37,343 nt of DNA from Methanomassiliicoccales archaeon (GTDB lineage: Archaea; Thermoplasmatota; Thermoplasmata; Methanomassiliicoccales; UBA472): the NCBI GenBank assembly GCA_038740345.1, contig JAVYMA010000018.1, forward strand, positions 1 through 37,343, read 5' to 3'. Positions 7,429 to 8,799 of this stretch are shown in pieces. The translations under genes were made by a program, and so were the position numbers. The notes beneath the pieces are model-generated. The model saw only the letters and a program-made list of their open reading frames with translations, was not told the DNA's origin and did not search any database. Within the stretch, counting starts at the first letter, position 1; each line of letters begins with the position of its first letter.

Positions 7429-7489
7429 TATGACAAAATGAGACTATTAAAGCAATGTTTAAATATTATCGTATGACATACATATGACA
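7429..7489 (+). promoter_or_regulatory. TATA box flanked by three phased TATGACA repeats
   Basis: TTTAAATATT (7458-7467) is a near-ideal archaeal TATA box and predicts transcription start near 7488. Three direct copies of TATGACA lie at 7429-7435, 7472-7478 and 7483-7489. The start-to-start distances are 43 and 11 bases, close to four and one helical turns, so all lie on the same face of the DNA. The middle copy is part of the palindrome GTATGACATAC (7471-7481). The repeats bracket the TATA box and cover the predicted start, where a repressor would act. Binding by the RHH protein encoded just downstream is inferred. Confidence 0.5.
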
Positions 7490-7522: not shown

Positions 7523-7885
7523 ATGGATGGCGAAAGGATCACACTTAGGTTAGAGCCCGAGGATTTAGAACTCATCGATGAATTCGTTGAGAAGAGACCT
7601 GAATTCTCGAATCGCTCTCATCTTGCACGCGTTGCCATTCGCACATTCATTGAAGGGGCTAGTGGTACACCAGTATCGGAGGAGCGGGGCGCTCGGATAA
7701 CGGTAGAGATGCCCAAAGCCGTGCTTCATGTACTGAATGCAATGGTTAAAGAGGGCTACTACAACTCAATCGCTGATGCGATAGAGGAGACCGTTAGAAA
7801 GGAGTTCATTTCCAAAGAGCATTTAGAAGATGCCAAGAAACGAGCTCTGGAGGCGCGAAAGAACACTCCTGAGTATGTCCCGTAA
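7523..7885 (+). CDS. Tandem ribbon-helix-helix transcriptional regulator (CdrS-like context)
   Basis: A 120-residue protein carrying two ribbon-helix-helix patterns in a row: RITLRLEPEDLELIDEFVE with the helix SNRSHLARVAIRTFI (about residues 5-42), and RITVEMPKAVLHVLNAMVK with the helix YNSIADAIEETVRKEFI (about 56-95). RHH proteins insert a two-stranded beta ribbon into the DNA major groove as dimers; two units in one chain could form an internal pseudo-dimer. A charged tail ends the protein. It is followed 107 bases later by an FtsZ-like gene. In haloarchaea the RHH protein CdrS is encoded next to ftsZ2 and controls cell-division genes, so a similar role is inferred. The phased repeats upstream suggest autoregulation. 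Confidence 0.85.
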   Translation: MDGERITLRLEPEDLELIDEFVEKRPEFSNRSHLARVAIRTFIEGASGTPVSEERGARITVEMPKAVLHVLNAMVKEGYYNSIADAIEETVRKEFISKEHLEDAKKRALEARKNTPEYVP

Positions 7886-7992
7886 AATACGGTGGGCGAA
7901 AAGGCTGGACGGTGAAAAGCCGCCAGAGGGGATGGGGTGCACGGTCACAAGGACCGATAGGTAACCTGTCCTCAACAGACCAGGAGGCAGGG
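7886..7992 (+). promoter_or_regulatory. GC-rich foldable leader before the FtsZ-like gene
   Basis: These 107 bases are clearly GC-richer than other spacers. Three hairpins can be drawn: CTGG-A-CGG pairing with CCG-CCAG (7905-7926, loop TGAAAAG), CGGTC/GACCG (7942-7956, loop ACAAG), and CTGT/ACAG (7966-7978). The strong ribosome binding site AGGAGG lies at 7982-7987. The stretch CCTGTCCT (7965-7972) can instead pair with AGGA (7982-7985) and CAGG (7988-7991), with two bulged bases, which would hide the binding site and exclude the third hairpin. This looks like a translational switch or a protein-binding leader. It does not match a riboswitch class I know; found by hand folding only. Confidence 0.4.
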
Positions 7993-8799
7993 ATGGCGAT
8001 GGATAGAGATGAGAGGGCTGAGCAGTTAGTAGCGATGCTCAGTAAAGGCATAGCTGAGCCAAAAATAACTGTTGTTGGCTGCGGAGGCGCGGGCAATAAC
8101 ATCGTGCATGGGTTATATTCTGAAAACAAGGGCAATGTTGTCACTATTGCAATCAATACTGACGAACGCAAGTTGCAGGAGATATCGGCTCACAAAAAGC
8201 TATTGATCGGAAAAGATGTGACGATGGGTAAAGGTGCCGGAGGATTCCCCGAGGTTGGTGAGTACTGCGCCGAGTGCGCCCGGCCTTATGTGCGTGAAGC
8301 TTTATATGGTAGCGATATCGTGATCATCGTCGCCGGTATGGGAGGCGGAACTGGTACTGGTGTCGCTCCTGTGGTAGCTCAGGTATCGAAAGAATTGGAT
8401 GCTGTAACTTTTGCTATTGCAATTTCACCTTTTTCCTACGAAAAGGAGAGAGCGCATAAAGCCAAAGAAGGGATTTTAAAGTTGAGGAAAGTGGTTAATG
8501 ACACCATCGTTCTGGATAACGATAGATTAATGGATATCGCTGGAGACATGCCATTGTCCGAGTCTTTAGCTATCATGGAGCGCAGTGTGGGTCGCATTAT
8601 AGATTCACTGTGCGCACAGATTACTGAATGCTTCGTGTCTCAGGTAACGCCTCAGGTTGAGGAAATGGTTCATCATACCGAGGAAGAGTCTTTGGTAGCG
8701 ACTTTAGCACCCCCAACAGAAGACCTTGCTCTAAACGCCAGCAGTCTTCACGTCAATAGAAAGACGCCGGAAATCCAAGACAACCTATTGATGCGTTGA
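7993..8799 (+). CDS. FtsZ-like GTPase lacking the T7 loop and C-terminal domain
   Basis: A 268-residue tubulin/FtsZ-superfamily protein. The GTP-binding half is well preserved: T1 loop VVGCGGAGNN (residues 28-36), T2 INTDERKL (55-61), T3 GKGAGGFPEVG (79-89), the tubulin signature GGGTGTG (117-123), T5 SPFSYEKER and T6 DNDRL (175-179). Helix H7 follows (about 187-210). The T7 loop with its catalytic aspartates (normally like NVDFADV) is absent, as is the whole C-terminal domain of 120 or more residues. A polar 55-residue tail ending PEIQDNLLMR replaces them. No FtsZ-like sequence continues in another frame, so this is not a simple frameshift. ATG 7993 is chosen because AGGAGG lies five bases upstream; the in-frame GTG at 7912 lies inside the structured leader. 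It should bind GTP but not build a normal filament active site; a role in modulating true FtsZ is inferred. Confidence 0.85.
   Translation: MAMDRDERAEQLVAMLSKGIAEPKITVVGCGGAGNNIVHGLYSENKGNVVTIAINTDERKLQEISAHKKLLIGKDVTMGKGAGGFPEVGEYCAECARPYVREALYGSDIVIIVAGMGGGTGTGVAPVVAQVSKELDAVTFAIAISPFSYEKERAHKAKEGILKLRKVVNDTIVLDNDRLMDIAGDMPLSESLAIMERSVGRIIDSLCAQITECFVSQVTPQVEEMVHHTEEESLVATLAPPTEDLALNASSLHVNRKTPEIQDNLLMR

Follow-up and report, generated by a model that had tools for sequence, protein, structure and literature searches.

A conserved FtsZ-family protein without T7 loop or C-terminal domain, encoded beside a tandem ribbon-helix-helix regulator in Methanomassiliicoccales

Two genes lie next to each other on the forward strand of the window, by which we mean the whole 37,343-nucleotide stretch of DNA that was analysed. 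The first encodes a tandem ribbon-helix-helix (RHH) regulator and the second an FtsZ-like protein that consists of an N-terminal GTPase domain and lacks the T7 loop (T7-less). An earlier note, made from the letters of the DNA, had described such a pairing, and Pfam indeed identified both partners, with RHH_1 and RHH_8 in the first product and PF00091 in the second. The locus contains the following features:

7429..7489 (+), promoter region with three TATGACA sites (7429-7435, 7472-7478 and 7483-7489), a candidate operator
7458..7465 (+), TTTAAATA, probable archaeal TATA box, putative function assigned from sequence
7523..7885 (+), tandem ribbon-helix-helix regulator gene, 120 aa (Pfam RHH_1 and RHH_8)
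7983..7987 (+), GGAGG, likely ribosome-binding site of the T7-less FtsZ gene (sequence)
7993..8799 (+), T7-less, N-domain-only FtsZ gene, 268 aa (Pfam, TIGR00065, orthologue alignment, structure model and tree)
8062..8541 (+), Tubulin/FtsZ GTPase domain (PF00091, residues 24-183)
8335..8361 (+), T4 loop GMGGGTGTG, the tubulin/FtsZ signature (sequence)
8518..8523 (+), N176 D177, guanine-binding motif (invariant in 45/45 relatives)
8554..8700 (+), H7 as a single 49-residue helix that replaces H7, T7 and the C-domain (AlphaFold2 model, helix 188-236)
8701..8796 (+), disordered tail ending ..NLLMR (pLDDT <50)

In the usual description FtsZ is a machine of two domains, and the active site of each subunit is completed by the T7 loop of its neighbour. 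PF00091 was the sole significant Pfam domain of the window protein, scoring 138.6 bits over residues 24-183, and no match to FtsZ_C (PF12327) was found by Pfam, whereas a control paralogue from the same genome (L005) matched both the GTPase domain and FtsZ_C, the latter at 2.5e-23. TIGR00065 aligned to residues 20-211 only, with a score of 205.8 bits that falls below its cut-off of 295.2. The T7 motif, which reads NLDF, NVDF or NLDY in the intact paralogues, is absent from the window protein and from those T7-less relatives that were read, and the window protein does not show the T7 loop with a catalytic NxDxxD-type motif by which an FtsZ is recognised. The GTP-binding half is intact, as the earlier note had read it, and its core residues (G1, N-T, the T4 glycines, E150, N176, which we take to be N166 of bacterial FtsZ, and D177) are invariant in all 45 aligned sequences. 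The note had, however, started the FtsZ-like gene at the GTG at 7912. Judged by the sequence this is very likely wrong, and the ATG at 7993, which has GGAGG shortly upstream and matches the N-termini of orthologues, replaces it.

An AlphaFold2 model of the protein (mean pLDDT 83) showed an FtsZ N-domain and no C-terminal domain. Thus the loss of T7 and the C-domain, also claimed in the note, is seen by sequence, by HMM and in the model. The note had further described H7 followed by a short new tail; the tail is there and is disordered, and H7 itself is modelled as one continuous helix, with confidence falling along the extension. Foldseek aligned the model with M. jannaschii FtsZ (1w5a) over 192 columns at 42% identity, with a TM-score of 0.67 by query length. 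In the sequence comparison two entries, 4b45 and 4b46, are labelled cell division protein FtsZ but are presumably CetZ. Their matches, at 6e-11 and 1e-7, were far weaker than those of FtsZ entries at 1e-41, and CetZ is not the closest relative. The possibility that the tail is a divergent C-domain, which would have undone the note's reading, is ruled out by the HMM search together with the structure model. The end of the tail resembles that of some full-length FtsZs (..VDFIR), a likeness that may have functional meaning. Such FtsZ-like ends (..LMR, ..LSR and ..LTR, compared to ..DFIR) are common outside one family, f2, and are absent from the aligned f2 sequences.

In the 120-residue RHH protein, Pfam placed RHH_1 at residues 5-44 and RHH_8 at residues 58-99. 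Its first half resembles the CdrS model NF058555 (E 3.8e-10), scoring 39.6 bits against a cut-off of 100. A three-way alignment with two congeneric genomes revealed that the TATGACA sites upstream are conserved and the TATA box largely so, while the spacer around the sites diverges. We scanned five genomes for a paired TATGACA site with at most one mismatch and found it once per genome in the source genome (G000), G001, G002 and G013, and not in G007. In the first three it is located at the promoter of the RHH and T7-less genes, and in G013 it lies on the same contig as the T7-less gene, ~500 bases upstream of it. The repetition of these sites near the TATA box suggests local autoregulation by the RHH protein. 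A role for this protein as a global regulator is not supported because the paired operator occurs once per genome, a count that covers paired sites only and leaves room for single half-sites or looser ones.

Relatives of the window protein are widespread. We read T7-less status from the sequence because degenerate homologues in f2 are short (~270-300 aa) and still contain a C-domain, so that ORF length alone was unsuitable and was rejected as a test of T7 loss. A T7-less gene is present in 54 of the 61 genomes of the order Methanomassiliicoccales; the seven without it include G005 (99% complete) and G018 (90%), the other five being less complete. Of 32 f2 genomes sampled, 31 carry it, and the remaining one (G245) gave only a weak match (E 3e-4). 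Beyond the order, but in the same class, it also occurs in at least six families (f8, f12, f16, f20, f24 and f26), and its presence in f11 and f17, which form long branches, is less certain. Among 145 genomes sampled across the phylum, the matches listed outside the class were nearly all long open frames, and one short frame (L104) still has T7 and runs off the end of its locus. In every case where the sequence extends far enough upstream, the T7-less gene is preceded by an RHH gene; two loci (L129 and L131) are cut by contig ends. The gene order leuS, RHH, T7-less gene, NAD kinase is shared by most loci of the order and extends to families f8 and f24 outside it.

Because the 45 aligned relatives keep the N-domain-only layout, and because the GTPase part compared with congeners shows a low dN of 0.10-0.17 with synonymous sites saturated, chance or decay as the source of this layout is excluded. 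A local truncation, which the note had named as fatal to its reading, or a frameshift is ruled out by the layout of the orthologues, which lack T7 likewise, by the synteny and by the dN values. One might still regard the gene as a relic that is decaying and no longer serves any purpose, and a few copies do have an altered T4 loop (GGHAGTE in G027 and GGRTGTG in G267). However, strong purifying selection, the invariant GTP site and retention across many families make this hardly credible. The T7-less FtsZ subfamily is old and well conserved, and the window protein is almost certainly a member of it, as a conserved subfamily of the class that includes Methanomassiliicoccales.

Full-length FtsZs are also encoded in the source genome, where the earlier note had suggested they be sought. 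A Pfam search of G000 returned eight FtsZ/tubulin loci (L001-L008, on contigs C12, C8, C4, C18, C2 and C1), five of which are full-length with canonical T7, and SepF is present as well. One of the full-length copies, L005, has a two-RHH gene directly upstream, and the window locus is a shortened version of this ordinary RHH-FtsZ layout. The arrangement itself is the known archaea-wide cdrS-ftsZ2 unit (PMC7439475). Like that unit (PMC7439475, PMC8406309), the window has an RHH gene followed directly by an FtsZ-family gene on the same strand, and the T7-less clade lies near RHH-linked full-length FtsZs in our tree. In contrast to it, the window RHH protein has two RHH domains and falls below the CdrS equivalog cut-off (NF058555), the FtsZ member lacks T7 and the C-domain and is not a full-length FtsZ2, and the genome holds a normal RHH-FtsZ unit at another place (L005).

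In the N-terminal tree all 43 T7-less rows group together (SH-aLRT 95). A quick tree built from the columns before H7, without three long branches, splits these rows once, and enforcing a single T7-less clade on those columns gave a better likelihood and was not rejected (AU 0.76). These trees are consistent with a single origin, in which an RHH-FtsZ (cdrS-ftsZ2-like) unit was duplicated and one copy then lost T7 and the C-domain; this would be the simplest reading, short of proof. As to the remaining loci of this 1.8 Mb genome, three of the eight are close together on C12. L007 (1393-1986), an FtsZ copy interrupted by a stop codon and with its T4 loop altered to GGGRGTR, looks like a pseudogene, and L008 (1132-2097) is a divergent FtsZ relative with the T4 loop GGETGSS, an altered T7 and a C-domain-like part.

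Because G000 holds full-length FtsZ, capping of filaments, as proposed in the earlier note, is possible there. The GTP-loaded N-domain would dock on the T7/C-domain end of a filament and, its own bottom face missing, block further addition, and its GTP would be hydrolysed only by the T7 of its partner. The retained GTP site and the lost T7/C-domain face fit such a cap, as do the presence of canonical FtsZs and SepF in the same genome and the FtsZ-like C-terminal ends that are common outside f2 and missing within it. With the GTP site kept, and many of the proteins ending in a hydrophobic-Arg motif, the sequences make a cap plausible in FtsZ-bearing species. FtsZ-binding inhibitors such as SulA and MciZ offer a comparison of working mode only, since they are not FtsZ relatives; the complexes 1ofu and 4u39 were among the structure-match entries. 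As a general role, however, capping is not supported. The T7-less gene persists in f2, where every canonical FtsZ is gone and none scores above the cut-off, and even in genomes where no other FtsZ-family gene was detected. It is the sole such gene found in three genomes, and capping of FtsZ therefore cannot be its only or constant function. Overall, we regard a cap as a somewhat unlikely account.

Family f2, with small and often closed genomes, probably represents the host-associated Methanomethylophilaceae, and none of 31 f2 genomes encodes an FtsZ above the TIGR00065 cut-off. At the place of L005, beside the same methyltransferase gene, f2 genomes carry a second homologue that is decayed in sequence. 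Its model shows a complete two-domain FtsZ fold (pLDDT 88; Foldseek TM-score 0.80 to 2vap) and the T7 motif has given way to another sequence, in most cases a GPFFSTF-type loop. Among the RHH-linked FtsZs of f2 (L105-L124), that of G054 is a long protein without the T7 aspartates and the others are ~266-296 aa with the GPFFSTF-type loop. The two proteins could form a split FtsZ, a mixed dimer or polymer with the T7-less protein as its GTP-bound half and the C-domain contributed by the degenerate homologue. Their decay is indeed partly complementary: the T4 signature is kept in 16 of the 17 f2 T7-less copies counted (a rough count by regex that missed some rows), and the second homologue combines a more variable T4 loop and the GPFFSTF-type loop at T7 with its complete fold. 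Many second homologues nevertheless retain a canonical T4 loop, and four f2 genomes (G022, G237, G206 and G213) yielded the T7-less gene but no second homologue, which leaves a split FtsZ quite unlikely. In three of these (G022, G237 and G206; loci L187, L188 and L189) an RHH gene adjoins the methyltransferase gene and the FtsZ gene expected between the two is missing; the corresponding locus of G213 is harder to read, being short and occupied by other genes.

The two genomes of genus g8, as well as G206, yielded no FtsZ-family gene other than the T7-less one. Of the 24 f2 genomes searched for SepF, 14 gave no match, G022, G237, G206 and G213 among them, and two further matches were below the cut-off. 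ESCRT-III was found in none of 33 genomes, a weak negative as the model misses its own cut-off in the Sulfolobus control too. Because the T7-less gene, with its T4 signature, stays in f2 genomes where another FtsZ was undetected, its product probably has a function independent of one. It might be a minimal FtsZ that self-assembles through the long H7 and the GTP face and remains as the division filament where no other FtsZ exists. The lone genes of g8 and G206 and the extension of H7 to 49 residues agree with this, but the T7/C-domain contact surface is absent. Moreover, eleven near-complete genomes of the class gave no match to an FtsZ-family profile (for example G091, G107 and G151 of family f22), so that division without FtsZ may be possible there and a substitute needless. 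We consider a minimal FtsZ very unlikely. A broader idea is that some archaea of the order, which have no ESCRT-III, lost all other FtsZ as well as SepF and retained only the T7-less member of the FtsZ family together with its RHH neighbour. It would then be either an FtsZ that has become purely a GTP-state regulator or a minimal FtsZ without hydrolysis that continues to serve division; this too seems unlikely, if less so.

We tentatively favour a GTP-state regulator that acts independently of filaments and is tied to the RHH protein. The T7-less protein would bind GTP but could not supply the catalytic T7 aspartates to a neighbour. Because these aspartates and most of the 'bottom' contact surface are missing, it would not be expected to form normal FtsZ filaments. 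Repression of the shared promoter by the RHH protein, acting at TATGACA sites just after the TATA box, is the most likely mode of control and would keep the T7-less protein at a set level. The T7-less protein would work without a filament and signal to the division programme whether GTP is bound, perhaps through an effect on the RHH protein. In FtsZ-bearing species its GTP face could also dock on the exposed T7/C-domain end of a filament.

We prefer action independent of filaments because the RHH protein, and not FtsZ, is the constant companion of the T7-less protein across lineages. The RHH linkage, the synteny, the invariance of the GTP site, the persistence without FtsZ and the once-per-genome operator all count for the GTP-state regulator. 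However, RHH-FtsZ adjacency is archaea-wide (PMC7439475) and may have been inherited for co-regulation only, and co-regulation alone would also explain a constant RHH companion. Canonical FtsZ and SepF are, moreover, present in most lineages, the hydrophobic-Arg end by which many T7-less proteins resemble full-length FtsZ fits a role at the ring, and lineages without other FtsZs may be special cases with a changed role. Taken together, a GTP-state regulator is slightly more likely than a cap, and capping may be added in FtsZ-bearing lineages.

Compared to canonical FtsZ (TIGR00065; M. jannaschii FtsZ, 1w5a), the T7-less protein has the same N-domain fold and GTP loops but a longer H7, no T7, no C-domain and a score below the FtsZ cut-off. 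Plant ARC3, which carries MORN repeats, and moss and algal FtsZ3 are similar in working mode only, as FtsZ-derived proteins that regulate the ring. They differ in origin and have no RHH gene, and the T7-less protein contains no MORN repeats or any other significant Pfam match beyond PF00091. In moss and algal FtsZ3 the GTPase domain binds FtsZ2 (PMC13274647). The RHH-FtsZ pairing is already known. For a family whose FtsZ member lacks T7 and the C-domain, in agreement with the earlier note, which knew of none with this layout, we found no description in the literature searched, which covered few subscription papers.

The long retention of an FtsZ half with an intact GTP site implies that evolution separated nucleotide binding from filament formation. 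For archaeal genomes without a recognisable complete FtsZ, SepF or ESCRT-III, the question of how division occurs becomes concrete, and the T7-less gene and its candidate operator are testable candidates.

A minor observation concerns C92 (window 8266-8268), which follows the T3 loop and is invariant in 45/45 T7-less proteins. The RHH-linked FtsZ L005 also has a cysteine at this position, and the other full-length FtsZs of the genome have alanine.
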